A DNA stretch of 64,000 nt from positions 620,001 through 684,000 of the forward strand of contig NZ_CP150291.1 of assembly GCF_038051985.1 (NCBI RefSeq). Reading direction: 5' to 3'. The notes below the pieces were generated by a model, which searched no databases, was not told the DNA's origin, and worked only from the letters and a program-made list of their open reading frames with translations. The translations under genes were made by a program, and so were the position numbers. Shown here one piece after another: positions 16,228 through 44,611 of this stretch. The stretch's first letter is position 1. Every line of letters starts with the position of its first letter. The DNA comes from Solibacillus sp. FSL H8-0523. GTDB lineage: Bacteria > Bacillota > Bacilli > Bacillales_A > Planococcaceae.

Positions 16228-16370
16228 TCCGTTTTGCTACGTTACGGCGGACGCTTTCCGCGGGCACGGCTCCAACTAATTTTTTGTGCCTCTGACGGTG
16301 GCACAAAAAATGGATTTTCCGCGCGTGCTGTTCCCGCAGGAGTCTGCCGCCTTCACTTCGCGACACTCTA
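16228..16370 (+). repeat. Intergenic structured repeat family A, copy 1
   Basis: This is a ~143-bp imperfect palindrome with conserved arms (GCTACGTTACGGCGGACGC at one end, GCAGGAGTCTGCCGCC at the other) and a central hairpin, TTTTTTGTGCC / GGCACAAAAAA (16280-16290 with 16300-16310). Further copies lie at 44056 (same orientation), 29268 and 44468 (both inverted). It lies in the 545-bp secA-prfB gap. I do not know a published name for it. Confidence 0.9.
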
Positions 16371-16508
16371 TTTTGGTAAAAGTTTCTTGCTATTAATAAG
16401 GAATTGAATAGGTATCTCCTTTTCCAAAATAGTTGATTTTAATCAAAAGATATACTTTTTTAATAAACCTTATTCATTAAAATATTAAAAGAAAAAATTT
16501 TAAAGTAA

Positions 16509-16667
16509 CCGCCGCCTCGCGTTAGCGCAAGCGGCTTGATTTCACGCTCTTAAATTTATTTACGAGAGCAAAATAAATGATTGGTGGGCATCGCAAACGG
16601 CATTAAAGACAGTAGTATGGACACGTACCACGTGGCCATAATGCGGTCATGCCGTAGCCCACCAATA
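16509..16667 (+). repeat. Composite palindromic repeat B+C, copy 1
   Basis: Part B (16509-16540) is a GC-rich hairpin around CGCCTCGCGTTAGCGCAAGCGG. Part C (16581-16665) is an 85-bp imperfect palindrome whose ends are TTGGTGGGC and GCCCACCAA, with inner pairs GGCAT/ATGCC and ATGG/CCAT. The whole unit recurs inverted at 28879-29037. It ends about 60 bases before prfB. Confidence 0.88.
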
Positions 16668-16730
16668 AGTTAAGTAAGTAATATTAGTTGAAAAACAAAC
16701 CCAATAACGGTTAACCACGGAGGAAAACAT

Positions 16731-17838
16731 ATGATCGAATTAGCAGAAGTGCGTAATGCACTCGAAACTACAGCTACGAAACTAGCGGACTTTAGGGGGT
16801 CTCTTTGACTTAGAAAACAAAGAGGCACGTATTCAAGAATTAGACGAAATCATGCTAGAGCCAAACTTCTGGAATGACCAGAATGGCGCGCAAACCGTGA
16901 TTAATGAATTAAACGGTATTAAAGCGGTCGTAAACGAATATAGCGAGCTATTATCGTTACAAGAAAACCTTGAAATGACATTAGAGCTGTTACGTGAAGA
17001 GGCAGACGATGAGTTACAAGAAGAGCTTGGTACGGAACTAGACGAGTATCAACAAAAGGTAGCAGCCTTTGAATTACAAATGCTGTTATCGGAGCCATAC
17101 GATAAGAACAATGCGATTTTAGAGCTTCACCCAGGTGCGGGTGGTACGGAGTCTCAAGACTGGGGCTCGATGCTACTGCGTATGTACCAACGTTGGGCAG
17201 ACAAGCGCGGTTTTAAAGTCGAAACATTAGACTACTTACCGGGTGATGAAGCGGGGATTAAATCCGTGACATTAAAAATTTCTGGCCATAATGCATACGG
17301 CTATTTAAAAGCTGAAAAAGGTGTACATCGTCTCGTGCGTATTTCGCCGTTCGACTCATCAGGCCGTCGTCATACATCATTTGTATCATGTGATATTATG
17401 CCAGAATTTAATGATGAAATCGAAATTGAAGTACGTACAGAGGATTTAAAAATCGATACGTACCGTGCAACAGGTGCCGGTGGTCAGCATATTAATACGA
17501 CGGACTCAGCTGTTCGTATTACGCATATTCCAACAGGTACAGTTGTACAATGTCAGGCTGAACGTTCGCAAATCAAAAACCGTGAAGCCTCGATGAAAAT
17601 GTTGAAATCGAAGCTGTATCAATTAGAAATTGAAAAGCAGCAAGCACAATTAGACGAAATTCGTGGTGAGCAAAAAGAAATCGGTTGGGGTTCTCAAATC
17701 CGTTCTTATGTATTCCACCCATATTCAATGGTAAAAGATCACCGTACAAGCGCAGAAACAGGTAATGTTGGCGCGGTAATGGATGGCGATTTAGACCAAT
17801 TTATTACAGCATATTTACGTTCGAAAATCTCATATTAA
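16731..17838 (+). CDS. prfB: Peptide chain release factor 2, made by programmed +1 frameshift
   Basis: RF2 ends translation at UGA and UAA. The gene is split: frame one runs from ATG 16731 for 25 codons to an in-frame TGA at 16806-16808, and the main frame continues from GAC at 16807 to 17838. Joined, this gives 368 residues, normal for RF2. The stop-recognition tripeptide SPF is at 205-207 and the catalytic GGQ at 250-252. Upstream GGAGGAAAAC is a good ribosome site. Slippage is autoregulated by RF2 level. A terminator follows. This is a functional gene, not a pseudogene. Confidence 0.97.
16794..16809 (+). promoter_or_regulatory. RF2 programmed frameshift signal
   Basis: The internal Shine-Dalgarno-like AGGGGG (16794-16799) lies three bases before the slippery CTT TGA C. 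The ribosome pauses at the poor UGA context and slips +1 on CTT. This is the classic prfB arrangement known from E. coli and most bacteria. Confidence 0.96.
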
Positions 17839-17843
17839 TAGGT

Positions 17844-17887
17844 AAGGGCTTGTCCGGAAAATTATTTTCTAGGCGAGCCCTTTTTTT
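17844..17887 (+). terminator. Terminator after prfB
   Basis: The stem AAGGGCT / AGCCCTT is extended inward by wobble pairs, has a long A/T-rich loop, and is followed by seven T residues. Confidence 0.85.
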
Positions 17888-17987
17888 ATAGTGAAAATTC
17901 AAATTGGATAAATTCAATACTTGTGAAAAGTGAAAAAATGTGCAATAATAAATACGAACAAACGTTCTCATTTAAGGAGGCATTTAC

Positions 17988-18338
17988 ATGTTACAAATCC
18001 CTTCTGGAACGATACCGTATTATGAATCAGGTATTTACTTACCACTACTGTTAGTCATTCTTGAAAAAGATCAGCAAATTATCGAGCAAAGCCCATTTAA
18101 GTTTACGCGTCCGTATTTACAGTTCGTGAACACGACACGTTCAAAAATTGAGCAAGATTTAAAGGAAACGAAGGAGTATTTTAAACTTCATCAGATGCGC
18201 TTGGTGAGAGGAAAAACAGATGATTTGTTTACCGAGTATCATTTTTATTTTGAAGGAGTCATGGAGTGTCGGAGATATTCGAATATTCGCCTCCGTAACC
18301 ACAGTGAGTTACTACTTGCTGAATATTTCATGGGGTGA
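17988..18338 (+). CDS. Conserved hypothetical protein, YhjD-like
   Basis: This is a 116-residue soluble protein of unknown function. Features are YYESGIYLPLLLVILEKD, the PFKFTRPYLQF segment, a central amphipathic helix with KIEQDLKETKEYF, and a C-terminal YSNIRLRNHSELLL. From memory this resembles YhjD of B. subtilis, which is encoded close to comK there, so synteny supports the link. ATG 17988 has AAGGAGG upstream. It converges on comK with only three bases between the stop codons and no obvious terminator between them. Confidence 0.7.
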   Translation: MLQIPSGTIPYYESGIYLPLLLVILEKDQQIIEQSPFKFTRPYLQFVNTTRSKIEQDLKETKEYFKLHQMRLVRGKTDDLFTEYHFYFEGVMECRRYSNIRLRNHSELLLAEYFMG

Positions 18339-18341
18339 ATG

Positions 18342-18830
18342 TTAAATCGAGCTATTCCGTTGGATGATAATATTTTTCGTATAAATAACAGCTCTTACGT
18401 ATTGTTGGTTGAATGACTTTAAGTGAACTGGGAAAACGTGCTCAGAGCCATCAAGGAATGTAACGAGTGTGGATTCATTACGTTCTTCAATGTTAATAAT
18501 CGCATTTACAGCGATCCAAATATTTTGTTTAGAATGTGGCGAAAATAACGGAAACATCACACAAGGATCACCGAAATTATAGGCAACCATAATCGGCATT
18601 TTGTGACGCGTATGACCGAAAAATTTTTTCGCATGATGCTTTGCCGCTTCATATGTTGTACCGTGCAACGAACAGGTATGGCGAATGACACGCAACGGTT
18701 GGAAAGAAACGATTATCTGACCGTGCTTGTCTAAAATCAACGTATGAACATGGTTACGGAAAGCTTTTGAAATTAAGCAATACGTTGAATTCGTAATAAT
18801 ATATTTAGATGTCGGGTTTGGTTCGAACAT
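18342..18830 (-). CDS. comK: Competence transcription factor ComK
   Basis: ComK is the master activator of DNA-uptake genes and binds paired AT-boxes. The 162-residue product shows the ComK core: an RHTCSLHGTTYEA segment (B. subtilis has DRSCRFFGSSYAG), then HKMPIMV, FPLFSPHSKQNIWI and an FLDGSEHVFPV strand. It is ~30 residues shorter than B. subtilis ComK at the C-terminus, where MecA binds. ATG 18830 is chosen because GAGGAG (18838-18843) precedes it by 7 bases; an upstream ATG at 18860 has no ribosome site. The adjacent IDEAL-domain gene keeps the B. subtilis comK-yhzC pairing. Confidence 0.88.
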   Translation of the reverse strand: MFEPNPTSKYIITNSTYCLISKAFRNHVHTLILDKHGQIIVSFQPLRVIRHTCSLHGTTYEAAKHHAKKFFGHTRHKMPIMVAYNFGDPCVMFPLFSPHSKQNIWIAVNAIINIEERNESTLVTFLDGSEHVFPVHLKSFNQQYVRAVIYTKNIIIQRNSSI

Positions 18831-18858
18831 ATAACTACTCCTCTCTCCTTGAATTTTC

Positions 18859-18934
18859 ACTATACTCTTAAAATAAGCTATGAAATGTCAAAAATCAACA
18901 TTATTCTCAGAAAATTCAGCCAAAAGATAATTAT
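18859..18934 (-). promoter_or_regulatory. comK promoter with possible ComK AT-boxes
   Basis: On the minus strand TTGACA (18891-18886) and TATAGT (18864-18859) are 21 bases apart, too far for strong unaided use. Upstream lie AAAA-N5-TTAT (18922-18934, one mismatch to the AAAA-N5-TTTT AT-box) and a weaker A/T box starting at 18891. The two are 31 bases apart start-to-start, which suits a K-box and hence autoactivation. The second box is degenerate. Confidence 0.4.
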
Positions 18935-18944
18935 TCAGAAAATA

Positions 18945-18974
18945 TTGCAAATTAAAAGCGATTTAATTTATAAT
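18945..18974 (+). promoter_or_regulatory. Promoter of the IDEAL-domain gene
   Basis: TTGCAA (18945-18950), an 18-base spacer and TATAAT (18969-18974) lie just before the ribosome site GAGGTGAT. Confidence 0.6.
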
Positions 18975-19000
18975 GGATAAAAGAGATCGAGGTGATATCG

Positions 19001-19243
19001 ATGGATAAATATTATTCGTATACAGACTTTTTGAAAGCAGTCGGTCAACAGCCAACGGGAAAACAATCAGAAAAGTTGTTAAATGAAATTTATTTAGATT
19101 TATTTATAAGTCGATTACAGCGCATGCACCGTATCGAACAATTAACTCTGTTAATCGATAATTCATTAGATCAAAAAAACGAACGGGATTTTAAAACGTA
19201 TGCTTCCGAATTAAAAGAGTTACTGGAAGCACCGATTTCTTAA
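19001..19243 (+). CDS. Small IDEAL-domain protein, YhzC-like
   Basis: This is an 80-residue acidic helical protein. The C-terminal half (LLIDNSLDQKNERDFKTYASELKELL) matches the IDEAL domain, a short helical module found in several Firmicutes proteins of unclear function. ATG 19001 follows GAGGTGAT. It is divergent from comK, and B. subtilis also has a small IDEAL-type gene (yhzC) beside comK, which suggests a linked but undefined role. It is closed by its own terminator and is not part of the uvr operon. Confidence 0.75.
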   Translation: MDKYYSYTDFLKAVGQQPTGKQSEKLLNEIYLDLFISRLQRMHRIEQLTLLIDNSLDQKNERDFKTYASELKELLEAPIS

Positions 19244-19245
19244 CC

Positions 19246-19279
19246 AAAAAAGTCACCTTTAAACGAGGTGGCTTTTTTG
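19246..19279 (+). terminator. Terminator after the IDEAL-domain gene
   Basis: AAAAAAGTCACCT pairs with AGGTGGCTTTTTT (one G-T wobble; 19246-19258 with 19266-19278) around a seven-base loop. Confidence 0.93.
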
Positions 19280-19385
19280 TATGGTGAAAATCGATTTTCG
19301 AATATATGTTCGCAAAATAATCGTCAATTAAAAATGGGTATGTTAAAATAAAATTATGAATACATCGACGGAAAGGACAGCTACT

Positions 19386-21368
19386 ATGACAGAAACGTTT
19401 ACAATTCAGTCCGCCTACAAGCCGGCGGGAGATCAGCCAGAAGCGATTAAAGAGCTTGTAAAAGGCATTCGCGAGGGCAAGCGTCATCAGACATTGCTCG
19501 GCGCTACAGGTACGGGTAAGACGTTTACCATTTCAAATGTGATTAAAGAAATCAATAAACCAACGCTCGTCATGGCACATAACAAAACGCTAGCGGGCCA
19601 ATTATATAGCGAATTTAAAGAGTTTTTCCCAGACAATGCAGTGGAATACTTTGTAAGTTATTATGACTATTTCCAACCGGAAGCGTATGTACCACAAACG
19701 GATACGTATATCGAAAAGGATTCGAGCATCAATGAAGAAATCGATAAACTACGTCACTCCGCAACCGCATCCCTATTTGAACGAAAAGATGTAATTATTA
19801 TCGCGTCCGTTTCATGTATTTACGGGTTAGGGAATCCAGAAGAATACCGGGAGATGTTAGTTTCCATTCGAACGGGTATGGAATTAGAGCGAAATCAGTT
19901 GCTACGCAAATTAGTGGACATTCAGTATGAGCGCAATGATATTAATTTTACGCGCGGAACGTTTCGTGTACGAGGGGATGTCGTTGAGATTTTCCCGGCA
20001 TCTAAAGATGAACACTGCATCCGTATTGAATTTTTCGGTGATGAGGTCGACCGCATTCGTGAAGTGGATGCCTTAACGGGGGAAATAATAGGGGACCGTC
20101 AGCACGTGGCAATTTTCCCAGCATCCCACTTCGTTACGCGTGAAGAGAAGATGAAAGTTGCAATTGAAAATATTGAGCGTGAGCTGGAAGAACGTCTTAA
20201 AACACTAAGATCAGAGGACCGTTTATTAGAAGCGCAGCGCTTAGAGCAGCGTACGAATTATGACTTAGAAATGATGAAGGAAATGGGCTTTTGCTCGGGC
20301 ATCGAAAACTATTCGCGCCATTTAACGTTGCGTGAATCCGGAGCGACGCCGTATACGTTGCTCGATTATTTTCCAAAGGATTTCTTACTTGTAGTTGATG
20401 AAAGTCACGTAACCTTGCCGCAAGTACGCGGGATGTATAACGGGGACCAAGCGCGAAAGAATGTGTTAGTCGACCATGGTTTCCGTTTACCATCAGCGCT
20501 TGATAACCGACCGCTTATGTTCGATGAATTCCAATCGAAGGTGAGTCAGGCAATTTATGTTTCGGCTACGCCAGGTCCTTATGAATTAGAGCATACACCT
20601 GATATGGTGCAGCAAATTATTCGTCCGACTGGCTTACTTGATCCGAACATTGAAGTGCGCCCGATTGAGGGGCAAATTGATGATTTAATCGATGAAATCC
20701 AGGAGCGTATTCGTCGAAATGAACGTGTGTTAATTACAACGTTGACGAAGAAAATGTCCGAGGATTTAACGAATTACTTGAAGGAAATGGGCTTAAAGGT
20801 TGAATATTTACACTCGGAAATTAAAACACTACAACGTATAGAAATCATTCGCGAGCTACGTAAAGGGACGCATGATGTACTCGTAGGAATTAACTTACTG
20901 CGAGAAGGGCTCGATATTCCTGAAGTGTCACTCGTTGCAATTTTAGATGCCGACAAAGAAGGCTTCCTGCGTTCGGAGCGTTCACTGATTCAAACGATTG
21001 GACGTGCTGCACGTAATTCGAATGGCCATGTCATCATGTATGCCAATAATATGACCGATTCTATGAAAAAGGCAATTAGTGAAACGCAGCGTCGTCGTGA
21101 AATTCAAGAGGCTTACAATGAGCAGCATGGGATTACACCGCAAACGATTATCAAAAAAATACCAGAGATTATTCGTGCAACACAGGCGGCTGAACAAGAA
21201 GAAACGTATCTTACAAAAGTAACGGGCGGCAAAAAGCTAACAAAAAAAGAGTTAGTCAAGCTGGTTGAAACATTGGAAGTGGAAATGAAGGAAGCTGCAA
21301 AAGCGTTAGACTTTGAACGTGCAGCGGAATTACGCGATATGATTTTTGAATTGAAGGCAGAGGGGTGA
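19386..21368 (+). CDS. uvrB: Excinuclease ABC subunit B
   Basis: UvrB verifies DNA damage delivered by UvrA and recruits UvrC for dual incision. The 660-residue product has Walker [11 protein letters not shown], the damage-probing beta-hairpin ([21 protein letters not shown]), helicase motifs including [13 protein letters not shown], and the C-terminal UVR motif [17 protein letters not shown] that binds UvrC. ATG 19386 is preceded by GAAAGGA at 19371-19376; the in-frame ATG at 19356 lacks a ribosome site. It is followed after 6 bases by uvrA. No LexA box (GAAC-N4-GTTC) was seen upstream. Confidence 0.97.
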
Positions 21369-21374
21369 CGTTAC

Positions 21375-24242
21375 GTGAAAAATACAGAAATCGTTGTACA
21401 AGGTGCACGTGCACATAACTTGAAAAATATAGATGTCACAATTCCGCGCGACAAAATCGTTGTGGTGACAGGTCTTTCGGGCTCAGGGAAATCTTCGTTA
21501 GCATTTGATACGATTTACGCAGAAGGGCAGCGTCGTTACGTCGAGTCGCTATCTGCTTACGCACGCCAGTTTTTAGGGCAAATGGACAAGCCGGATGTGG
21601 ATACGATTGAGGGGCTGTCACCAGCGATTTCAATCGACCAAAAAACAACGAGCCGTAATCCGCGCTCAACAGTTGGGACCGTTACCGAAATTTATGATTA
21701 CTTGCGTCTGCTATTCGCGCGTATTGGCAAGGCGTATTGCCCGACACATGGTGTTGAAATTTCATCGCAAACAATCGAGCAAATGGTAGATCGTTTAATG
21801 GAATATCCAGAACGTACGAAAATTCAGCTGCTTGCACCTGTAATTGAAGGCAAAAAAGGCACACATGTGAAGCTGATAGAAGACTTGAAAAAGCAAGGTT
21901 TTGTACGGATTCGTCTAAACGGAGAGCTACGTGATTTAGACGATCATATCGAGCTTGATAAAAACAAAAAGCATACGATTGAAGTTGTCGTGGACCGTGT
22001 TGTCATGAAAGAAGGCATTGAATCGCGTTTAAGTGATTCGCTAGAGGCTGCATTAAAAATTGCAGAGGGCCGTGTGTTAGTTGATGTGATGGAGCATGAG
22101 GAGCTGCTTTTTAGTGAGCATCATGCCTGCCCGCAATGTGGGTTTTCAATTGGAGAGTTAGAGCCACGTATGTTCTCGTTCAACAGTCCGTTCGGGGCAT
22201 GTCCGTCTTGTGATGGCTTAGGCAGCACCGACAAAGCCGACCTTGATTTAGTTATTCCGGATTGGGACTTATCGTTGTTAGAAAATGCAATTGCACCGTG
22301 GCAATCGGTGTCGTCGAACTATTATCCACAGCTATTAGCATCGGTTTGTCTCCATTATGACATTCCAATGGATGTACCGGTGAAGGATATTCCAAAGGCG
22401 CAAATGGATAAGATCTTGTACGGCTCAGGGAAAGAAAAAATTCGATTTGACTATACAAATGATTACGGTAGTATGCATAAAAAGGATGTTGTGTTTGAAG
22501 GGGTCATTCCCAATATCGAACGCCGCTATAAAGATTCGTCATCGGATTATACACGGGAAGCGATGCAAAAATTTATGACCGAACAGCCATGCGTGTCGTG
22601 TAAGGGGCATCGTTTAAAGCCGGAGACACTTGCGGTTAAAATTCAAGATCAAAATATTTCAGAAGCCACGCGCCATTCGATTCAAGAAATGTATGATTTC
22701 TTTAGTTCAGTGGAGCTAACGGAAAAAGAAAAGCAAATTGCGAAATTAATTATTCGTGAAGTCATCGAGCGGTTGAGATTTTTACTTGATGTGGGCTTGA
22801 ATTATTTAACGTTAGCGCGAAATGCCGGCTCATTATCCGGTGGTGAGGCACAGCGCATTCGTTTAGCGACGCAAATTGGGTCGCGTTTATCAGGCGTACT
22901 GTATATTTTAGACGAGCCGTCGATTGGGCTACATCAACGTGACAATGATCGCCTCATTGCGACGCTTGAAAATATGCGTGATTTAGGCAATACGCTTATT
23001 ATTGTGGAGCATGATGAAGATACAATGATGGCTGCGGACCATTTAATTGATATTGGGCCGGGTGCTGGGGTGCATGGTGGGCAAATTATTGCACAGGGGA
23101 CACCGAAGCAGGTCATGAAAAACAAAGACTCGATTACCGGGCAATATTTAAGTGGGAAGAAGTTTATTCCATTGCCACAGGAGCGCCGCAAGTCAGATGG
23201 TCGTAAAATTACGATTAAAGGCGCAGCGGAAAACAACTTGAAAAAGGTGAATGTCGATATTCCACTTGGTCAATTTATCGCTGTCACAGGGGTTTCTGGT
23301 TCAGGGAAATCGACATTAGTAAATGAGATTTTATATAAATCGTTAGCTTCAAAATTAAACCGCGCGAAGATGAAGCCGGGTGCACATAAATCAATTGAAG
23401 GCCTAGAGCAGCTTGAAAAAGTAATCGAAGTCGACCAATCACCAATTGGCCGTACACCACGTTCAAACCCAGCGACCTATATCGGGGTGTTTGATGATAT
23501 CCGCGATGTGTTTGCGATGACGAATGAAGCGAAGATACGCGGCTATAAAAAAGGACGCTTCTCATTTAATGTAAAAGGTGGACGCTGTGAAGCTTGTCGC
23601 GGAGACGGGATTATCAAAATCGAGATGCACTTCTTACCAGATGTGTATGTGCCATGTGAAATTTGTCACGGTAAGCGCTATAACCGCGAAACATTAGAAG
23701 TGAAATATAAAGAAAAAAATATTGCAGACATTTTAGAAATGACGGTGGAGGATGCACTGGAGTTTTTCGGCAACTTACCAAAAATTCAGCGTAAACTGCA
23801 AACGATTGTTGACGTGGGGCTGGGCTATGTGAAGCTTGGTCAGCCGGCGACAACCCTTTCAGGTGGGGAGGCGCAGCGTGTCAAACTCGCATCCGAATTA
23901 CATCGCCGCTCCAACGGGAAATCATTCTACATTTTAGACGAGCCAACAACAGGTCTACATGTGGATGATATCGCACGGTTATTAAAGGTGTTACAGCGTT
24001 TAGTCGACAATGGGGAGACGGTGCTAGTCATTGAGCATAATTTAGATGTCATTAAAACCGTCGACCATATTATTGATTTAGGTCCTGAAGGTGGCGATGG
24101 TGGTGGCACGATTTTAGCAACGGGTACACCAGAGCAAATTGCTGAGGTGAAGGGAAGCTATACGGGACACTACTTAAAGCCGATCTTAGAACGTGAGCGT
24201 GCACGGATGGATGACAAAATTGAACATGCAAAAGGTAAATAA
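21375..24242 (+). CDS. uvrA: Excinuclease ABC subunit A
   Basis: UvrA is the dimeric ABC-type ATPase that scans DNA for bulky lesions. The 955-residue product has two ATP-binding modules: [10 protein letters not shown] with [14 protein letters not shown], then [10 protein letters not shown] with [16 protein letters not shown]. Zinc-finger cysteines are present (CPQCGF...CPSCDG and CEACRGDG...CEICHG). The start is GTG 21375, with AGAGGGGTGA overlapping the uvrB stop. It is co-transcribed with uvrB, and no clear terminator follows before the next promoter. Confidence 0.97.
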
Positions 24243-24264
24243 TTTAAATTCTCCAGAGCGCAAA

Positions 24265-24295
24265 TGAAACTTTTTGTCCTCCCTCCTCGTATAAT
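24265..24295 (+). promoter_or_regulatory. Sigma-W-type ECF promoter for the YvlB-like gene
   Basis: TGAAAC (24265-24270), a 17-base spacer and CGTA (24288-24291) match the extracytoplasmic sigma-W consensus TGAAAC-N16/17-CGTA. A TATAAT overlaps at 24290-24295 but has no matching -35. In B. subtilis the yvlABCD operon is a known sigma-W target, so the match fits the gene downstream. Confidence 0.7.
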
Positions 24296-24327
24296 AAATA
24301 GATACGAAGAGAGGGAGGAATTTTTTT

Positions 24328-25533: not shown

Positions 25534-25542
25534 TAGGACGTG

Positions 25543-25584
25543 AAGCCCACTTGCAAGGTTAGTACTTGCAGGTGGGCTTTTTTC
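25543..25584 (+). terminator. Terminator after the YvlB-like gene
   Basis: A 15-bp stem (25543-25557 with 25565-25579, one mismatch) is built on AAGCCCAC / GTGGGCTT and followed by T residues. Confidence 0.93.
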
Positions 25585-25820
25585 TATGATTGAGAAGGAT
25601 TTTCAATAAATATGTCGAACAATACATAAGTCCGAATGTTTATTATATTAATAAAATTTTATGTAACAAAAATATGACAAAGTACATCAGATATTTCAAA
25701 TGGTGCGTGAAATTTAGCAAGAAATCAATCTGTAAATGGCGCGTGAATCGTCTGTAGTGCATTAAAAATGTGCACACGCTTACAATGAAAAGAAATTGTA
25801 ATAATTTTATAGCTTGAAAG

Positions 25821-25829
25821 TGCTATAAT
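25821..25829 (+). promoter_or_regulatory. Extended -10 promoter for ftsE
   Basis: TGC-TATAAT (25821-25829) is an extended -10 about 50 bases before ftsE. No -35 is seen at standard spacing. The rest of the 296-bp gap is A/T-rich; it contains a short direct repeat (AAATGG-GCGTGAA, two copies 40 bases apart) of unknown meaning. Confidence 0.5.
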
Positions 25830-25880
25830 AAAAAGGATAAATTTAATTTTTAAGACACAAGAACTTAGGTGGTTTCGTTA

Positions 25881-28833: not shown

Positions 28834-28878
28834 AATTCATCACGTAAGAGTAACTTTTCTAATAAAATTTTACTTGAT

Positions 28879-29037
28879 TGATTGGTGGGCAATGGCATGA
28901 CAGCAATATGGTCACGTGGTACGTGTCCATACTACTGTCTTTAATGCCGTTTGCGATGCCCGCCAATTCATCATTTTTCCCTCGTCATAAAGTTAAGAGC
29001 GCAAAATCAAGCCGCTTGCGCTTACGCGAGGCGGCGG
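28879..29037 (-). repeat. Composite palindromic repeat B+C, copy 2 (inverted)
   Basis: This is the reverse-complement counterpart of the unit at 16509-16667: part C at 28879-28966, then part B at 29005-29037. Part C is over 85% identical by eye, including the inner AAAGACAGTAGTATGGACAC core; the spacer between C and B differs. It lies in a 770-bp gap. Confidence 0.88.
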
Positions 29038-29131: not shown

Positions 29132-29267
29132 TTAATTTTGATTAAAAATAGCATGATTTGAAAGAAATAACTTTTCAAATTACTTGCTTCATCATTTTAC
29201 TAAAGTAAAGTGGCGCTGAGTAAAGGGAGATTTTAAATAAAATTGCTTCAAAGAATAGAGTTGTACG

Positions 29268-29462
29268 GAGTGGAGGGGTGGACTTCTAGGGGATTAAGCG
29301 TGCGCGGAAAATCCACTAATTACTTGCCGACATGTTGGCAAGTAATTAGTTAGTTGGAGCCACGCCCCCAGAAAAGCCTGCCCCGGAACGCAGTACAATG
29401 GACGTGAGCTTAAAATCATCTCGCATTAACGTGTATTCCCCGTAGCGTAGCAGAACGGATTT
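29268..29462 (-). repeat. Intergenic structured repeat family A, copy 3 (inverted, extended)
   Basis: This matches the reverse complement of copy 1 in its arms (GCGTGCGCGGAAAATCCA and TAGTTGGAGCC) but carries a different central hairpin: CTAATTACTTGCC / GGCAAGTAATTAG, 13 perfect pairs at 29316-29328 and 29337-29349. The far arm seems interrupted by about 50 extra bases before CGTAGCAGAACGGATT. Confidence 0.8.
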
Positions 29463-29499
29463 TATAAAAAAGATTTAGTTAAATACCCAAATACATTTC

Positions 29500-32945: not shown

Positions 32946-32951
32946 GTAAGT

Positions 32952-33719: not shown

Positions 33720-33726
33720 ATTTAGG

Positions 33727-33756
33727 CGTCGCTATATTAAATAGTGACGTTTTTTC
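33727..33756 (+). terminator. Terminator after the TVP38 gene
   Basis: CGTCGCTAT / ATAGTGACG (one G-T wobble, 33727-33735 with 33741-33749) is followed by TTTTTT. Confidence 0.88.
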
Positions 33757-33764
33757 TTTGCTAT

Positions 33765-33945: not shown

Positions 33946-34011
33946 ATAAAGTGCGCGAACATGTATTCTTATTATATAATAAAGATACTTAAAAAAAGTG
34001 AGGTGTCGGCG

Positions 34012-37000: not shown

Positions 37001-37644
37001 TGTATAACGGTATTTCGCTTCAGCTGTTAACGTATTTAGATGTGGCGATGCAAAACTTCCCGATTATTGCACAGGAAGGCAAGTTTATTAAGGATTTATC
37101 GGAGCTTGAAAACATCATTGTGCAAGCAGCCGGCATGTTCTATTTACATGTGCATAACCCACTGATTCCAACTGAGGATTATGAGCAGCTCGACAAGGTA
37201 GAAAGCTTACGTCAGGAAAAGTTCAAGCTAAGTGGCTATATGTTGAAGGATGTCGAGGTAGCGAACTTAATGGATACGTCGCTTGAGCCGAGCAAGACGT
37301 CTATTATTGTGCCAGCGAAATTTAAAAGTGGTGAGGAGCTAGAATTTGATGGCCGCTCATCGAAAGTGATCGAACCAGCGCAAATGGAGAATTTACAGCA
37401 ATTTGTTCACCATAAATTCCGCCAGGCGGGTAATGAAATTTATAAAGGTAACACCGAAATTAAGCCGTACAGCTTAGGCAATCAAAAAGCATGTACGTAT
37501 TGTAATTTTAAATCGGTTTGTCAATTTGATGAGACCGAAACGGGCAACAGCTTCAATGAACTGAAGAAGCAAAAAGAGGAAGAACTATTCGACAATATGA
37601 AAAAGGCGGTGTGTGTACATGACGATTCCAATGAAGCCGAGTGA
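34012..37644 (+). CDS. addB: ATP-dependent helicase/nuclease subunit B
   Basis: AddAB processes double-strand breaks to recombinogenic 3' tails, the Firmicutes counterpart of RecBCD. The 1210-residue AddB has an N-terminal UvrD-like P-loop (GRAGTGKST), a Chi-scanning pseudo-helicase body and a C-terminal PD-(D/E)XK nuclease (GQIDRIDA...VIDYKSSGRKLDF). Iron-sulfur cluster cysteines flank the nuclease: one in FYSCPYSHF and three in ACTYCNFKSVCQF. ATG 34012 follows AGGTG at 34001-34005; 17 upstream in-frame codons are left out. The end overlaps addA by 26 bases. Confidence 0.96.
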   Translation: MTLRVISGRAGTGKSTFIHEEIVEDLKTNLLGHPIFILVPDQMTFSTEYELTNNYDIEGMMRAQVMTFKRLAWFVLQNEGGIARERIDNTGYRMLLRRILEEHQEEFLLFKQAAGKRGFTKEVEQILKEFSQYNIDLPSLKPLMDALRVNGASEVLLHKMHDIEIILQQLEERIGAEYIDGDGYFPLLLERMPKMESLRNTHVYLDGFVSFNGQEFAILKELLIYAKRVTLVLPMDHPSSDMLDGSTFYRAAMTYDKVKHEIAKLRLEHGLDIEEEPRMHLEVNFRSKNRDLQQIERSFNEPFVKPIEALGNVKILEGVNPRAEVQGIAQEIKKLVVEKGLRYQDIGIMYRQADVYDPIITTTFTQYEIPYFSNEKRAMLYHPLIEFSRSVLEILTSNWKYEPVFRSVKTDLYFPYNANLAAMRDRADILENFVIAKGIVHDRWFNDEVWHYRRFKSLEKMNTVQTKDEEEHEALLKSARDLIREPVAKLQHKLKGHVTGRDIVVALYEFMDELEVYKKLVKMQEQEEKTAAMQKATEHEQAWNGWVHILEQFDLMFGDKEIALEEAAQILDEGFESLQFSSVPPTLDEVTVSTLEFARFDNKKAIFIIGVNDGAYPMRMDSGGLLSDDERDVFEQADFELAPGIKSRLLQESFLFYRAITSPTDYLFITYASADEESKGKLPSIYVNRLHKMFEVKQDGKDEPVRTLPQRQVVADPLDEVHSANVLDYLQHPSPAIGFLMTQLKQAQFERREVAEAWQALQAFYEREGNWQHVLELVTKPLYETNEAEPLTEETATKLYGENFLASVSRIEKFYSCPYSHFASYGLKLQERTEFKLESFAMGDLFHEAIRTILSEKEPTIVLDTYVACYKKADYTISKLVDYFSYNILKSSHRFEYIKTKLVKIVARTIYALVNQSELSKFKAIAHEKPFGKRDDKNTEQDDRNPLDALKIDLDDNRKMFVRGQIDRIDAYKDAQNLYLRVIDYKSSGRKLDFNEVYNGISLQLLTYLDVAMQNFPIIAQEGKFIKDLSELENIIVQAAGMFYLHVHNPLIPTEDYEQLDKVESLRQEKFKLSGYMLKDVEVANLMDTSLEPSKTSIIVPAKFKSGEELEFDGRSSKVIEPAQMENLQQFVHHKFRQAGNEIYKGNTEIKPYSLGNQKACTYCNFKSVCQFDETETGNSFNELKKQKEEELFDNMKKAVCVHDDSNEAE

Positions 37645-40600
37645 TGTGCAGTGGACCGATGTACAGTGGAAGGCGATTTATGCAGCTGGACATGATGTAT
37701 TAGTATCGGCTGCTGCGGGTTCAGGGAAAACAGCGGTATTAATCGAGCGGTTAATTCAAAAGATTTTAGCACCTGAGGATGTTCGAATTGATGTCGATGA
37801 ATTACTCGTTGTAACGTTTACAAACGCATCGGCTGCGGAGATGCGCAATCGTATGGCAGAGGCACTCGAAAAGGCGCTGTCCGAGGACCCAAGCAATGCC
37901 TTTTTACGCCGTCAGCTGAGTCTACTAAATAAGGCACAAATTTCAACGCTGCATTCGTTTTGCTTATCGATTTGCCGTGAGTTTGCATACACAATTGATT
38001 TAGATCCAGGTTTTCGTTTAGCGAGCACCGAGGAGGCATCACTGCTACAAGATGATGTACTAATGGACGTGTTAGAAAAGGCGTACCGTGGGGATATGGA
38101 TGCACTATTTTCAAAAGATGAGTTATATGCATTAGTTGATAGCTTTGCGACGGACCGCAGTGACCAGGCGATTGAGTTTTTACTACAGGAAATGTATAAA
38201 GTGTCACGTGTACAGCCAAAACCGTATGAATGGTTACGCGCGTTGCCGTCTAAATATGATATTGATCCGAGTACACCGATTGATGATTTAGCGATAGCTA
38301 AGGAAATTCGCCCGTTTGTTGTCGCGAGTTTACAAGAAGCAGCAAGTCGTATATATAAAGGCTGGCAAATTGTATCGGTGGAGCCAGCGCTTCAAAAAAA
38401 CACGGAGTTATTTGAAGGGGAATACGCGGCGGTAAAAGCAGTAGCCGACGCAATGGAGCAAGGCACGTGGCAAGAGGCCTATGAGCTGATGCCAGCAATT
38501 GAATTTGGTCGGATAAAAGCTGTGACGAAAAAAGATACCGAGGAAGACCGTGCACAATACGCGATTGCGAAAGACCACCGCGACCAAGCAAAAGCAATGA
38601 TTGCAGGTTTAAAGGAAACATTTTTCGCCCGTCATCCAAAGCTGTACGTACAGGAAATGGCTGCAACTAAGCCAATTTTAGAAACGTTAGTGAAGCTGAC
38701 GATTGAATACAGCGAGGCCTTTAAAAAGGCGAAGCAGGAGCGCGGTTTACTGGATTTCTCGGATTTAGAGCATTATGCACTTGAGATTTTAACCGCTCGA
38801 GATACGGATACGGCACCACCGACACCGTCTGATGTGGCACTAGGTTTTAAGAAACGTTTTAAAGAAGTGCTTGTTGATGAGTATCAGGACGTTAACTTTT
38901 TACAAGAAACGATTCTGCAGCTTGTGAAAAGTGGCGATGAGGCGAGTGGCAATATGTTCATGGTTGGTGATGTCAAACAGTCGATTTACGCGTTCCGACT
39001 GGCAGAACCCCGCCTGTTCCTTGATAAATACAAGCGTTTTGACACGGATCCAACGGCGAACGGGATGAAAATCGATTTAAATGCCAACTTCCGTAGCCGT
39101 TCAGAGGTATTAGAAGGCACGAACTATGTGTTTGAGCAAATTATGGATGAGGAAGTCGGCGAAATTGAATACGATGAGCAGGCAAAACTAAGATTTGGTG
39201 CAAGTTACGATGAGCAGCAAGTCCCGATTGAACTAGTGCTACTTGAGGGCGATTCAAAAACACAAATCGTACCTGGTGCCGAAGAGGATACAGAGGAAGA
39301 AAGCATTAGCGCGGCCCAGCAAGAGGCACGTTATATTATTCAGCGTATTCGAGGCTTTGTAGAAAACGGTGGACAAGTATATAACCCGAAAACAAAATCA
39401 ATGCGCCCCGTGCAATACAAGGACATCGTTGTTCTAATGCGTTCACGCACATGGTATACGACATTCGCTGAGGAATTTAAACGTGCAGGCCTACCGCTGT
39501 ATGCGGAAACAGATGGTGGCTATTTCGAGTCGCTTGAAGTGATGATTATGCTTAACACATTAAAAGTGATCGACAACCCGTATCAGGACATTCCACTAGC
39601 ATCTGTTCTGCGTGCCCCGTTTATTGGCTTAACGGAAAATGAACTGGCAGCCATTCGTTTGGTAAACGAAAAAGTGCCGTTTTATGATGCGCTCAAGCAA
39701 TTCCGTGAGCAGGCGAATGGTGAAATGTCGGGTGCTACGGAGCAAAAGCTCGACAAGTTCTTTAGCCTACATGAAAAATGGCGTAACTTCTCGCGTCACG
39801 GGGCACTCGCTGATTTAGTATGGCAAGTGTATTTAGATACGAATTATTTTGAAATGGTTGGCGCGATGGCGAATGGTAAGCAGCGTCAGGCCAATTTACG
39901 TGCGCTGCATGACCGCGCATTAAGCTATGAAAAATCATCGTTTCGTGGATTATTCCGCTTCCTACGTTTCATTGACCGTATGCACTCGCGCGGGGATGAT
40001 CTAGGAATTGCGAAATCCATTAGTGAAGCCGATGATGTCGTAACCCTACTGACGATTCACAAATCAAAGGGCTTAGAATATCCAGTCGTATTTGTTGCGG
40101 GCATGAGCCGAGCTTTCAATACAAAAGATTTAAGCAGTCGTTATATTTTTGATCAAGATTTTGGGTTAGCGATTAAATCGGTCAATCCGGATTTGAATAT
40201 TATTTCAACATCACTACCTCATTTATATGTGAAAGAGAAAAAGCTCGCAAAAATGAAGGCTGAGGAAATGCGTATTTTATATGTGGCGATGACGCGTGCG
40301 AAGGAACGACTAATTTTAGTCGGTTCTATAAAAGAGTGGCAAAAGCAAAAGGAAGAATGGCAGTTTTATCAGGATTTACAGGAAAAAGTGCTGCCAAAAT
40401 ATGTGCGTTCTAAAGCAAATAGCTATTTAAGCTGGGTAGGTCCTGCGGTTGCACGTCACAACGATTTCTTATTTGCCGAGTATCGTTCAGAAAAAGCGAC
40501 GAAAACGGAAAAATGGAAAATTACCGTTGTGCCAAATAGTGATTATTTAGCGGCCAACGAGCAGGCAGATACGGTAGATGAAAAGGACAAGCAAGCAGTG

Positions 40601-41335
40601 AATGAAGAGCTCGTGACGCTTTTAACGAACCGCTTTTCAGCTAGTTATCCATATGAACAGGCGGTAACAAAAAAATCGAAAACCTCTGTATCCGAGCTGA
40701 AGCGATTAGAAAGCTTGCAGCAAATGGAGGAAGAACAGCTGTACAACACCGATGCCAAACGCTACGTAAAAGCGACGGTGCCAAGCTTTATGTTAAAAGG
40801 TAAAAAGAAGCGCGAGCTATCAGCAACCGAAATAGGAACCGCGGTACACGCAGTCATGCAGCACGCACCGCAGCAAGGTTTTGAGACAATTGAAGAAGTA
40901 GAGCGGTTTAAACAAGTGTTAGTGGAGCGTCAGTTATTACATCAAATTGAAGCAGAGGCCGTGCAAGCCGAGCAGGTACTCGCCTTTTTCAAAACGGAAA
41001 TTGGGCAACGCTTTACACAGGCAAAGGAAGTGCTACGTGAAATTCCGTTTACGCTCAGTCTAAAAGACAAAGACGGCGATGCACAAATTATTCAAGGGGT
41101 AATTGACTGTCTGTTTGAAGATGCGAATGGTCAGTGGATCTTACTCGATTATAAAACCGACTTTATTGCGCCATCCATTTTAGACGATTTTGAGAAAATT
41201 AAACAAAAAATGACAAAATCCTACCAAGTTCAATTAAACTATTATCAACATGCTGTACAAGTCATTAAACGCATTGAAGTAAGCGAGAAATATTTATATT
41301 TGTATAGCATTGGTCAACAATTGAAAATGGATTAG
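37619..41335 (+). CDS. addA: ATP-dependent helicase/nuclease subunit A
   Basis: AddA supplies the 3'-5' helicase motor and the second nuclease of AddAB. The 1238-residue product has Walker A SAAAGSGKTAVLIERL, DEYQDVN, later UvrD motifs (LLTIHKSKGLEYPVVFV, ILYVAMTRAKERLIL) and the C-terminal nuclease core (GVIDCLFEDANGQWILLDYKTD). ATG 37619 gives MTIPMKPSDVQWTDVQWKAI, close to the B. subtilis start; it lies inside the addB end, so translation is probably coupled. The ribosome site AAGGCGGTG is moderate. Confidence 0.96.
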   Translation: MTIPMKPSDVQWTDVQWKAIYAAGHDVLVSAAAGSGKTAVLIERLIQKILAPEDVRIDVDELLVVTFTNASAAEMRNRMAEALEKALSEDPSNAFLRRQLSLLNKAQISTLHSFCLSICREFAYTIDLDPGFRLASTEEASLLQDDVLMDVLEKAYRGDMDALFSKDELYALVDSFATDRSDQAIEFLLQEMYKVSRVQPKPYEWLRALPSKYDIDPSTPIDDLAIAKEIRPFVVASLQEAASRIYKGWQIVSVEPALQKNTELFEGEYAAVKAVADAMEQGTWQEAYELMPAIEFGRIKAVTKKDTEEDRAQYAIAKDHRDQAKAMIAGLKETFFARHPKLYVQEMAATKPILETLVKLTIEYSEAFKKAKQERGLLDFSDLEHYALEILTARDTDTAPPTPSDVALGFKKRFKEVLVDEYQDVNFLQETILQLVKSGDEASGNMFMVGDVKQSIYAFRLAEPRLFLDKYKRFDTDPTANGMKIDLNANFRSRSEVLEGTNYVFEQIMDEEVGEIEYDEQAKLRFGASYDEQQVPIELVLLEGDSKTQIVPGAEEDTEEESISAAQQEARYIIQRIRGFVENGGQVYNPKTKSMRPVQYKDIVVLMRSRTWYTTFAEEFKRAGLPLYAETDGGYFESLEVMIMLNTLKVIDNPYQDIPLASVLRAPFIGLTENELAAIRLVNEKVPFYDALKQFREQANGEMSGATEQKLDKFFSLHEKWRNFSRHGALADLVWQVYLDTNYFEMVGAMANGKQRQANLRALHDRALSYEKSSFRGLFRFLRFIDRMHSRGDDLGIAKSISEADDVVTLLTIHKSKGLEYPVVFVAGMSRAFNTKDLSSRYIFDQDFGLAIKSVNPDLNIISTSLPHLYVKEKKLAKMKAEEMRILYVAMTRAKERLILVGSIKEWQKQKEEWQFYQDLQEKVLPKYVRSKANSYLSWVGPAVARHNDFLFAEYRSEKATKTEKWKITVVPNSDYLAANEQADTVDEKDKQAVNEELVTLLTNRFSASYPYEQAVTKKSKTSVSELKRLESLQQMEEEQLYNTDAKRYVKATVPSFMLKGKKKRELSATEIGTAVHAVMQHAPQQGFETIEEVERFKQVLVERQLLHQIEAEAVQAEQVLAFFKTEIGQRFTQAKEVLREIPFTLSLKDKDGDAQIIQGVIDCLFEDANGQWILLDYKTDFIAPSILDDFEKIKQKMTKSYQVQLNYYQHAVQVIKRIEVSEKYLYLYSIGQQLKMD

Positions 41336-41345
41336 GAGGATTCTT

Positions 41346-42506
41346 GTGGAGTTTCGCCCAGTAGGTTCCAAAGAGCGTGTGGCAACGCTTGATATATTAC
41401 GTGGTTTTAGTTTACTCGGTATTTTACTTGTCAATATGTTTGGCTTTTATTTACCGATGCCACATATTGCGGATTTAAGTAATTGGTTTAGTGAAGCACA
41501 AGACATTATTTGGCAACAATTGCTCGATATTTATGTGCAAAGTAGTTTTTATCCGTTATTTTCGATGCTGTTCGGGTATGGTTTAGCAATGCAGTTTTTA
41601 AAGGCCAAAGAAACGGGGGCTAGTTTTTATCGATTTGCCCCAAAGCGCATGATCATCTTATTTATAGTAGGGATGTTGCATGCCGTCCTCATTTGGTGGG
41701 GCGATATTCTAGCAACATACGCATTTTGCGGCATTTTCTTAATTGCCCTTATGCGCTTACGTGCAAAATGGCTTTTAATCATTGCAGTTGTGGTCAACGG
41801 GTTGTATCATGCGATTATTTTAAGTCTATATAAAGCGGGCGGTATGTTTGATACGACAACGGATAGTTTGTCGGTAGATATTGTAGCGATTCAAAGCTCG
41901 ATTGAGGCATATGGGGTTGGATCGTGGATGGATGCATTTTCGCAGCGCTTAGTCGATTTGTCGATTCAACTGAGCCCGTTTATGTGGATTTCGTCGCTAT
42001 TTACGATTTTACCGTATATGCTAATTGGAGCAGCACTTGGAAAGTGGCGTCTCATTGAAGGTGCGAAGGACAAGCTAGTGACATGGCTAGTATTAGCGGT
42101 ACTTGGCATTGGTATCGGGATTTACATGAAAAGCTTACCAATTGCAGGTGCGCAAACATTTGGCAATGAATATTTACAAGTGTACATTGGTGGTCCGATG
42201 TTAGCGTTAGGCTATATTGCCGTCGTGACGTTACTTACGCAGCTACCGTTTATTGTAAAAGTTTTATCACCGGTGGCAAAGGCTGGCCGTATGTCGATGA
42301 CGCTGTACATTATGCAGTCGATTGTCTGCACGGTGCTCTTTTACAATTGGGGCTTCGGATTATTTGGCAAAGTGGATGTACAGATGGGTGTCTTTATTGC
42401 CCTGGCGATTTATGTGTGCCAATTAGTAATGGCCGAGCTGTATTTCTCGAAATTTAAGCAAGGGCCACTCGAAGCAGCGATGAAGCGCTTAACGTATGGT
42501 AAATAG
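41346..42506 (+). CDS. DUF418 family multi-pass membrane protein
   Basis: This 386-residue membrane protein has about ten TM helices. It opens with RVATLDILRGFSLLGILLVNM, the signature of the DUF418/YeiB group (related to acyltransferase-3-like and HGSNAT proteins), and ends with the DUF418 core (AGRMSMTLYIMQSIVCTVLFY) around 315-370. Function and substrate are unknown. GTG 41346 is preceded by AGGAGG just after the addA stop, ten bases away, so it is likely the last gene of the addBA operon. Confidence 0.85.
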   Translation: MEFRPVGSKERVATLDILRGFSLLGILLVNMFGFYLPMPHIADLSNWFSEAQDIIWQQLLDIYVQSSFYPLFSMLFGYGLAMQFLKAKETGASFYRFAPKRMIILFIVGMLHAVLIWWGDILATYAFCGIFLIALMRLRAKWLLIIAVVVNGLYHAIILSLYKAGGMFDTTTDSLSVDIVAIQSSIEAYGVGSWMDAFSQRLVDLSIQLSPFMWISSLFTILPYMLIGAALGKWRLIEGAKDKLVTWLVLAVLGIGIGIYMKSLPIAGAQTFGNEYLQVYIGGPMLALGYIAVVTLLTQLPFIVKVLSPVAKAGRMSMTLYIMQSIVCTVLFYNWGFGLFGKVDVQMGVFIALAIYVCQLVMAELYFSKFKQGPLEAAMKRLTYGK

Positions 42507-42579
42507 ATTTCAGAAAAGTAAGGTAATTCCAAACGTATTGATGTATGATGTAAAAAAACAGTAAGGAGCGTTTTACGTT

Positions 42580-43482
42580 ATGAAATTGTTATCATTTAAA
42601 GTAAATGAACAAGTAAAGTTTGGTCCAAAAGTGAAAAAAGAAGAGGCGGTTTGGGATGTTGTTGAAATTCAAAAGCAACTAAACGTCTTAAAAGATTTCC
42701 CGGAAACAATTATCGACGGCATTACGTTAGGCTATGACTTTGTTGAGCAGGTTCGTAAATTAGTAGATGCTGCACAAAAACATGAAGATGGTGCGCAATT
42801 TAAATTAGCGTATTCACATATTGAATGGTTATCACCAATTCCGCGTACACCGAAAAATATTTTATGTGTCGGAAAAAACTATAACGATCATGCGGTGGAA
42901 ATGGGTGCAGAGAAAGCGCCTGAAGATATTATGATTTTCACAAAATCACCAACAGCGATTGCTGCGGATGAAGCGACTTTACCGGTCCATGCGGAGTTAA
43001 CGGATTCACTCGATTACGAGGGTGAATTAGCGATCGTTATTGGCAAGCGCGGTAAAAATATTCCGAAGGGCATGGCGTTCGATTATGTGTTTGGTTATAC
43101 CATCGCTAATGACTTAACGGCGCGTGATCTTCAGCAAAAGCATAAGCAGTTCTTCTTAGGCAAGAGTTTAGAAGGAAGCTGTCCAATGGGGCCATACTTA
43201 GTAACGAAAGATGAACTTCCTGATCCACAAGCACTTACAGTGGTAACAAAAGTAAACGGTGAAATCCGTCAAAACGGCTCGACAAAAGATATGATGTTTA
43301 CCGTAGAGGATATTATTGCTATCGTTTCGAAATATGTAACGCTTGAGCCAGGTGATGTTATTTTAACAGGGACACCAGCTGGAGTAGGTAAAGGCATGAA
43401 TCCACCACAATTTTTAAAAGCAGGCGATGAAGTGAAAATTTCAATCGAAGGTATTGGGACATTAGCGAATCGCTTCGCATAA
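42580..43482 (+). CDS. yisK: Fumarylacetoacetate hydrolase family protein, YisK-like
   Basis: This 300-residue FAH-fold enzyme is close to B. subtilis YisK, reported as an oxaloacetate decarboxylase that also affects cell-wall homeostasis. An N-terminal domain (about 1-85) precedes the FAH core (about 90-298): ILCVGKNYNDHAVEMG, the metal-binding LDYEGELAIVIGKRG, FGYTIANDLTARDLQQKHKQFFLGKS, and GDVILTGTPAGVGKG. It is followed by yisL, as in B. subtilis. Exact substrate is not provable from sequence. Confidence 0.9.
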   Translation: MKLLSFKVNEQVKFGPKVKKEEAVWDVVEIQKQLNVLKDFPETIIDGITLGYDFVEQVRKLVDAAQKHEDGAQFKLAYSHIEWLSPIPRTPKNILCVGKNYNDHAVEMGAEKAPEDIMIFTKSPTAIAADEATLPVHAELTDSLDYEGELAIVIGKRGKNIPKGMAFDYVFGYTIANDLTARDLQQKHKQFFLGKSLEGSCPMGPYLVTKDELPDPQALTVVTKVNGEIRQNGSTKDMMFTVEDIIAIVSKYVTLEPGDVILTGTPAGVGKGMNPPQFLKAGDEVKISIEGIGTLANRFA

Positions 43483-43500
43483 AAATGTAAAAAATTTATT

Positions 43501-43514
43501 ACAAAGCGTTTACA
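43501..43514. promoter_or_regulatory. Weak CcpA (cre)-like site
   Basis: ACAAAGCGTTTACA (reverse complement TGTAAACGCTTTGT) matches 12 of 14 positions of the catabolite-responsive element, with one half-site perfect. It lies between yisK and yisL. Confidence 0.3.
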
Positions 43515-43593
43515 AGCAATCGAATTCATTGAATCCTCACAACCTCTCATGGTAGGATAACTCATGTAGAAAAAAATAGAAGAGGTGGAAATA

Positions 43594-43962
43594 ATGGATT
43601 TTTTAACTAGTACAACGCACTTACACATTACAACTTGGGTAATCGCATTAGTTTTATTCTTTATCGCAGCATTATCTAGTAAAAAGCTTACAGGTGTACA
43701 TATGGGCTTACGTTTAATGTACATTTTAGTGATCATTACAGGTGGCGCACTATTCTTAGAATGGCGCGATAAAATTACTGAAAGCGGCATGAATTATGAC
43801 ATGAAGGTATTATTCGGTATTTTAGTAATCGGCTTCATGGAAATGGTGTTAGTACGTAAAGGCAAAGGCAAGCCAGTAAACCTATTCTGGATTCTATTTG
43901 CTGTTGTGTTATTAGTAACGTTATACCTAGGCTTAAGCATGGGTATCGGTGTGAACTTCTAA
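43594..43962 (+). CDS. yisL: YisL family (DUF1516) membrane protein
   Basis: This 122-residue protein with four TM helices has the family features THLHITTWVIALVLFFIA, a middle HMGLRLMYILVIITGGALF helix and GILVIGFMEMVLVRKGKGK. Function is unknown. ATG 43594 is preceded by AGAGGTGG (43581-43588), while the GTG at 43585 lies inside that site. It follows yisK as in B. subtilis and ends at a good terminator. Confidence 0.9.
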   Translation: MDFLTSTTHLHITTWVIALVLFFIAALSSKKLTGVHMGLRLMYILVIITGGALFLEWRDKITESGMNYDMKVLFGILVIGFMEMVLVRKGKGKPVNLFWILFAVVLLVTLYLGLSMGIGVNF

Positions 43963-43973
43963 TTCAATCAATC

Positions 43974-44010
43974 AAACCACTTTAGCTTAGTTGCTAGAGT
44001 GGTTTTTTCT
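43974..44010 (+). terminator. Terminator after yisL
   Basis: AAACCACTTTAGC / GCTAGAGTGGTTT (43974-43986 with 43993-44005, one mismatch) is followed by T residues. Confidence 0.92.
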
Positions 44011-44055
44011 ATGAGTCACAAGATATTAAAAATAACTAAGTGTTTTGTAATGAAA

Positions 44056-44200
44056 TCCGTTCTGCTACGTTACGGCGGACGCTTTCCGCGGGCACGGCTC
44101 CAACTAATTTTTTGTACCTCTGACGGCGGCCCAAAAAATGGATTTTCCGCGCGTGCTGTTCCCGCAGGAGTCTGCCGCCTTCACTCCGCGCCACTCTCTA
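44056..44200 (+). repeat. Intergenic structured repeat family A, copy 2
   Basis: This is about 93% identical to the copy at 16228-16370 and in the same orientation, including the arms and the central TTTTTTG/CAAAAAA stem. The GTGCC half of the stem has changed to GTACC without full compensation, so this hairpin is weaker. Confidence 0.9.
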
Positions 44201-44311
44201 TGGGAAAAAGTGAGCTTCTTTAACAAAGTAGTTCAGCATAATAACTAAAATAGAATTCCTTTCTAAAAAAGCAATCATAAAATTTCCCTATTGTTATAAA
44301 GTGAAGAACAA

Positions 44312-44345
44312 AAAATCAAGCCGCTTGCGCTAACGCGAGGCGGCG
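44312..44345 (-). repeat. Solo part-B hairpin repeat
   Basis: AAATCAAGCCGCTTGCGC followed by TAACGCGAGGCGGCG matches part B of the composite repeats, here without part C. Confidence 0.8.
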
Positions 44346-44467
44346 AATGATGTAAAAGTTTTGCTTACTTGATTGAGCATACTTTGAATTCTAAGGTAGC
44401 TATTTTTAATAAGTTTGTTGATAAAGCAACCTATTTTGTTAAAGAGATTCACTTTATGCCAAAGTAG

Positions 44468-44611
44468 AGAGTCGCGTAGTGAAGGGGCCGACTTCTAGAG
44501 GATAAGCGTGCGCGGAAAATCCAATGTACTGTGCCGCCGTAGAGGTACAGTACATTTAGTTGAAGCCACGCCCTCAGAAAAGCGTGCCTCGTAACGCAGC
44601 AGAACGGATTC
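44468..44611 (-). repeat. Intergenic structured repeat family A, copy 4 (inverted)
   Basis: This shares the arms of copy 3 (GCGTGCGCGGAAAATCCA, TTAGTTGAAGCC, GTAACGCAGCAGAACGGATT) but has the central stem ATGTACTGTGCC / GGTACAGTACAT (44524-44535 with 44544-44555), eleven Watson-Crick pairs plus one G-T. It lies inverted to copy 2, 270 bp away, in the gap before the GH13-like gene. Confidence 0.87.

Follow-up and report, generated by a model that had tools for sequence, protein, structure and literature searches.

An intergenic repeat that occurs four times in a 64,000-nucleotide stretch of the genome of Solibacillus sp. FSL H8-0523 (the window) is best read as the hairpin-forming core of a short non-coding mobile element and not as a stand-alone RNA. 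A first-pass annotation of the window had placed copies at 16228, 29268, 44056 and 44468, and had proposed that a central stem whose sequence changes while its pairing is kept reflects selection on the structure of an RNA or of single-stranded DNA. The places were correct, with the copies at 16228 and 44056 on the forward strand and those at 29268 and 44468 on the reverse strand, and so were the three stems that it quoted, with one G.U pair in the stem at 44468. Probably, the repeat forms the palindromic cargo of miniature inverted-repeat transposable elements (MITEs) of the ISL3 type, a family that is moved in trans and whose tips were diversified largely by hairpin-templated copying.

The 4.14-Mb genome that holds the window (G000; other G numbers denote genomes compared with it, and L numbers denote loci) carries at least 37 copies with a readable tip. 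Overlapping searches, three in all, located 42, 40 and 46 places. The reading covered those assigned to 45 loci, namely the 37 readable tips, seven fragments and one duplicate entry (L043), of which the last eight were left out of the tip comparison. The principal part, palindrome A, is an imperfect palindrome of around 150 bp that consists of a frame, with arms of three types, and a tip. Its centre runs GGCTNCAACTAA, stem, loop, stem, TGGATTTTCCGC, with the loop TCTKACGG in nearly all copies and 22 different left-arm tip sequences among the 37. A second palindromic part, module B, follows with at least one motif in the same orientation in 24 of the 37 copies, a count that excludes the copy at 44056, near which the motif runs the other way and is part of the neighbouring copy. 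By eye, the inner hairpins of module B also vary in a paired way (ATGG/CCAT, AAAG/CTTT, AGAG/CTCT), for example in the units that belong to copies 1 and 2 (16509-16667 and 28855-29037).

The link to transposons came from a comparison of flanks, which revealed inverted repeats of about 25 bp (GGTTCATCACC..TGGGG.TG) at both ends of related elements. The end pattern GGTTCATCACCRTAANNTGGGGWTG, allowing two mismatches, was present in 10 of the 16 genomes of the genus and the backward control gave 0, while across the family (200 genomes, at most one mismatch) the ends occurred in 33 genomes from 11 of 19 genera. Target duplications of 8 bp, which are typical of ISL3, were found around 13 separate elements of G009, exact in nine and matching at 7/8 positions in two and at 6/8 in two. 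These elements measure 203-613 bp, or 2.05-2.08 kb when module B is interrupted by an IS3-like insertion. The 203-613 bp forms have no transposase gene of their own, and the 207-208 bp form (L281, L287) is palindrome A alone, inverted, between ends. In G000, the duplication was exact at L034 and L046 and 7/8 at L024. MITEs of other genera with the same kind of frame and other tips had exact duplications at L310 (G047) and L326 (G101) and a 7/8 duplication at L313 (G029). The end-bounded elements are ISL3-type MITEs that carry an unusual interior and, given these ends and duplications, the repeat was read as the inside of a transposon-like DNA element. The IS3-like insertion of G009 lies at the same place of module B in L269 and L270 and elsewhere in L271, and the MITE duplications are exact in all three.

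A candidate partner transposase was seen in other genera. At L329 (G021) and L312 (G045), ends of the same type and exact 8-bp duplications surround elements of 1316 and 1310 bp, with intact open reading frames (ORFs) of 397 and 396 amino acids that score as ISL3 transposase (NF033550, E 1.3e-67 and 2.7e-70). Such an enzyme would recognise the ends and could move short non-coding elements in trans. Frame and transposase occur together in G013: in another ISL3 element, L217 (intact 403-aa ORF), and in L223, the frame lies past the stop codon of the transposase and before the right end. L217 was considered as the MITE parent and set aside, as its ends (GGTTCTA..) differ from the MITE ends (GGTTCATCACC..), which makes L329 and L312 the better partners. 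Among ISL3 loci of the L217 kind, none of the 18 whose downstream stretch was viewed (13 named records and 5 of the genus) had the frame there, as against both G013 copies viewed. Two more G013 loci, L074 and L088, have nearly the frame of L217 and L223 with another tip class, and three tip classes in all were seen at the same place of the frame. Other palindromes lie between an ISL3 stop codon and the right end at L291, L300 and L308, in Lysinibacillus endophyticus, Kurthia zopfii and Kurthia sibirica, respectively.

The ends and duplications also speak against a repetitive extragenic palindromic (REP)-like element mobilised by a Y1 (RAYT) enzyme, since they indicate another transposase. The repeat is an interspersed intergenic palindrome, as such an element would be, yet it is present in all 16 genomes of the genus while a Y1 match was found in nine and in none of the other seven, and no frame was found near the five Y1 loci read of 20, the sole G000 locus included. 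This origin is thus barely credible. The G000 Y1 match (G000:C1:530237-531166; L131, L218) adjoins a comM-like gene, just before an ISL3 remnant.

The pairing of the centre was assessed on a larger set of tips from G000 and related genomes, in which 141 pattern hits less three chance hits left 138 tips with 96 distinct cores, 60 left arms and 67 distinct 9-bp arm pairs. Watson-Crick pairing was found in 563 of the 603 cells of these arm pairs, compared with 269.6±13.2 when right arms were exchanged (maximum 322 in 10,000 shuffles), which bore out the annotated change of sequence with pairing retained, far above chance. The centres of other copies were mostly paired, with 37 of the 67 arm pairs perfect and 59 paired at eight or more of nine positions; the window copy at 44056 has two mismatches. 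Stem position 2 is T in 138/138 tips; most other stem positions vary, whereas AACTAA and TGGAT in the flanks hardly do. Among 17 gap-free aligned tips of equal length, pairing extended to 98.0% of cells and the covariation score was 0.613, against 0.139±0.027 for shuffled tips and at most 0.121 for slid partners. Two weaker measures on these 17 were less clear, as the seven pairs with both-sided changes were matched by 86 of 500 shuffles and the 17 further pair types by 25 of 500. The outer helices behaved likewise: RNAalifold, given 41 of 45 selected copies (four of the 45 references were not passed to it), predicted 25 pairs spread over tip and outer helices, 16 of them with both-sided changes, and its consensus had conserved asymmetric unpaired stretches that separate the helices.

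How the tip changes was addressed with 86 copies in eight subfamilies, whose members were picked by left-arm similarity and whose frames lie 1-8% from consensus. Both-sided changes that retain Watson-Crick pairing numbered 17, whereas independent mutation at the frame rate would supply 0.61, an excess of around 28-fold; single changes comprised 18 unpaired and 10 of the G.U type, compared with 68 expected. The true partner gave 18 both-sided changes (15 distinct events) in a test in which slid partners gave 1, 0, 2, 5, 0 and 0; in a strict set of 80 copies it gave 8 (7 distinct events) against 0, 0, 0, 1, 0 and 0. Hairpin-templated replication errors rewrite one arm from the other, and purifying selection on independent mutations should reduce doubles, not increase them. 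The excess over the independent expectation therefore fits hairpin-templated arm copying better than compensatory selection. Very fast turnover of the tip in place was rejected on the slow change in three orthologous pairs of G001 and G002: the stem was unchanged in the first, altered on one side to a G.U pair in the second, and in the third it had a double together with two unpaired singles.

The selection proposed in the first-pass annotation thus divides into two parts. Constraint is likely for the frame, as its unpaired stretches have not been healed into perfect palindromes; for the tip, selection was not established, and the both-sided changes and the setting of the repeat inside a transposon-like element fit arm-to-arm copying. 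Direct selection in full would make the repeat a structured RNA or single-stranded DNA element (a regulatory RNA or a protein-binding hairpin) that spread as a repeat, the covariation of the tip being compensatory evolution of singles that are harmful until compensated. The strong covariation of tip and frame, the conserved loop and unpaired stretches and the depletion of unpaired singles are all in its favour, as is the folding of three window copies as RNA, in which both strands do better than shuffles (z -2.2 to -4.8; as DNA the values are -3.8, -3.8 and -2.2). It is considered unlikely, as the both-sided changes exceed an expectation that selection should lower. In addition, an Rfam scan at gathering scores found no match in the repeats, and for four loci there was none in palindrome A, with two weak matches at L004 that lie downstream of A and far below the gathering score. 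Nor do the 37 G000 copies have a clear bias in orientation to their genes (13 in tandem in the same sense, 14 in tandem opposite, 8 convergent and 2 divergent).

Exchange between copies would offer another source of both-sided differences. Tips might be swapped when copies recombine or undergo gene conversion through their conserved flanks, with new tips as rare captures and most both-sided differences as imports. Stem CTTTTGATGCC was found with two arm types, so that centres and arms have been shuffled among the G000 copies, and differing tip classes occur in one frame both in G013 and at the secA-prfB site described below. Many doubles, however, are a single base pair on an otherwise unchanged tip, where an import would usually bring several differences, and exchange as the chief explanation was judged improbable.

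Several observations weigh against a MITE family with copied tips. With regard to the MITE, two abutting elements at L280 in G009 have no duplication, and in G000 the duplications are poor despite both ends being read at L037 (5/8), L015 (4/8), L265 (6/8) and L260 (7/8). Palindromes of this superfamily are also found without visible ends, the L329 and L312 insertion sequences carry no palindrome, and G000 yielded one ISL3 remnant but no intact partner bearing these ends. At all four window copies no recognisable MITE end was found within six substitutions, so their membership rests on the shared body; we infer that they descend from ISL3-type MITEs with decayed ends and were moved by ISL3 transposases. 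With regard to the copying, the both-sided counts are per copy and inflated by shared descent, as the numbers of distinct events show; members were chosen by left-arm similarity, and some doubles could stem from gene conversion with other copies. The one-sided change and unpaired singles of the G001/G002 orthologues mean that arm copying is not instant, and a tip shared by 11 copies retains a mismatch.

Under hairpin-templated copying within a MITE, a strand would fold on itself while being replicated or repaired, and one arm would be rewritten from the other, which would change both sides at once. Copies with different tips would then be amplified and their tips exchanged, giving rise to subfamilies, and constraint would keep the frame intact and a hairpin in place without preserving the letters of the tip. 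As a guess, the hairpin might fold in any transcript that crosses it, in either orientation, and in that way ease its tolerance between genes. The tip could, more tentatively, be a natural record of coupled mutation, in which both arms are rewritten in single events, RNA-like covariation arises without compensatory selection, and tips can be swapped like cassettes while the frame stays fixed. A conserved RNA structure is often regarded as proven by covariation, but here a transposon-borne DNA palindrome covaries strongly, with more both-sided changes among closely related copies than independent mutation supplies, and covariation alone is not proof of selection on structure in this repeat. Should templated copying be true, a mutational null model is needed whenever palindromic repeats are tested for covariation, and the process could well be measured in this family, which has dozens of copies in each of many related genomes.

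The family is widespread. Palindrome A had matches in all 16 genomes of the genus and in 62 of 81 genomes of the family, from 18 of 19 genera, and all 37 G000 copies lie outside ORFs of at least 110 amino acids. The four window copies had been described as lying between operons; all are intergenic, but the operon part was not established, with copy 1 sitting between the co-directional genes secA and prfB. By eye, the secA-prfB gap holds a palindrome of the superfamily in 11 of 16 species, G000 included, and none in five, and among the 11 one is truncated and two are interrupted by other repeats. Two Kurthia plasmids (NZ_CP147848.1 and NZ_CP126690.1) carry one palindrome A each, at 79.5% identity, a possible route between genera. 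The parts of the window copies, numbered in order along the window, are listed in Table 1.

Table 1. Parts of the four repeat copies in the window.
Feature	Positions	Strand	Remarks
Copy 1, palindrome A (frame and tip)	16228..16383	+	94% identity to copy 3 over 156 bp; between secA and prfB
Copy 1, tip hairpin	16280..16310	+	stem TTTTTTGTGCC/GGCACAAAAAA
Copy 1, module B (palindromic, downstream)	16509..16667	+	blastn match to G009 element; part of composite repeat
Copy 2, palindrome A	29249..29402	-	longer flanked match is 29255-29475
Copy 2, tip hairpin	29316..29349	-	13-bp stem CTAATTACTTGCC/GGCAAGTAATTAG, own loop
Copy 2, module B	28855..29037	-	86% identity to copy 1 module B
Copy 3, palindrome A	44056..44220	+	served as query of one genome search
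Copy 3, tip	44108..44138	+	stem TTTTTTGTACC/GGCCCAAAAAA with two unpaired positions
Copy 4, palindrome A	44449..44611	-	faces copy 3
Copy 4, tip hairpin	44524..44555	-	stem ATGTACTGTACC/GGCACAGTACAT
Partial module B, downstream of copy 4	44296..44376	-	80% match over 82 bp to L008 unit

The setting of these copies bears on whether they are transcription terminator or attenuator hairpins. GC-rich intergenic hairpins, eight of 37 copies between convergent genes, would suit that role, but scans of the window's three intergenic regions for terminator-like sites (a GC-rich stem followed by a U-tract) found none inside the repeats. The terminator-like hairpins that the scans did report are at 16150-16174, upstream of copy 1, and at 43974-44005, upstream of copy 3, and shuffled sequence gives about as many on average, which leaves such a function very improbable.

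Among known systems, ISL3 insertion sequences and their derived MITEs share with these elements the end layout of L329 and L312, the 8-bp duplications and a lack of visible coding capacity in short forms; they differ in that the repeat has a large bulged palindrome as cargo, with exchangeable, paired and variable tips, which is absent from L329 and L312. The attC sites of integrons also preserve structure while sequence varies, and the likeness extends to that alone, no search having been made for an integrase or a cassette array. In the literature, covered at the level of abstracts and with few subscription journals, no description of this repeat family was found. The bcr1-bcr3 repeats of Bacillus cereus, like the repeat, are intergenic, structured and MITE-like, with transcription reported for about half of all bcr copies; they belong to a different host group and were likened by description, not by sequence (PMC3446304). 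BOX, RUP and SPRITE of Streptococcus pneumoniae are intergenic repeats too, modular or MITE-like and predicted to be strongly structured, but have other ends and another host, and the available part of that account mentions no covarying variable tip (PMC3049150). Bhal-1 of Bacillus halodurans, a 74-bp stem-loop family of 36 copies, is likewise an intergenic stem-loop family of the Bacillales, again likened by description and not by sequence (PMC2267715).

Other structured features were noted along the way. Another structured repeat lies in or near palindromes at L018, L066 and L002 (G000), L154 (G010), L310 and L326, with the stem ACGAATGC/GCATTCGT or ACAAAAGC/GCTTTTGT depending on the copy, and seems to covary too. 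In a repeat at L007, L014 and L029 (G000), a conserved GCTCCTGTCGCTRCGCTTTCGTCGCAAA precedes a hairpin around AAGGCATTTGA whose sequence varies but is paired. At L006, about 500 bp from palindrome A, Rfam matched a group II intron. Rfam also identified, within the window, a T-box leader at 55608-55834 on the reverse strand (126 bits) and the small RNA RsaE/RoxS at 61138-61250 on the forward strand (80.8 bits, cut-off 79).

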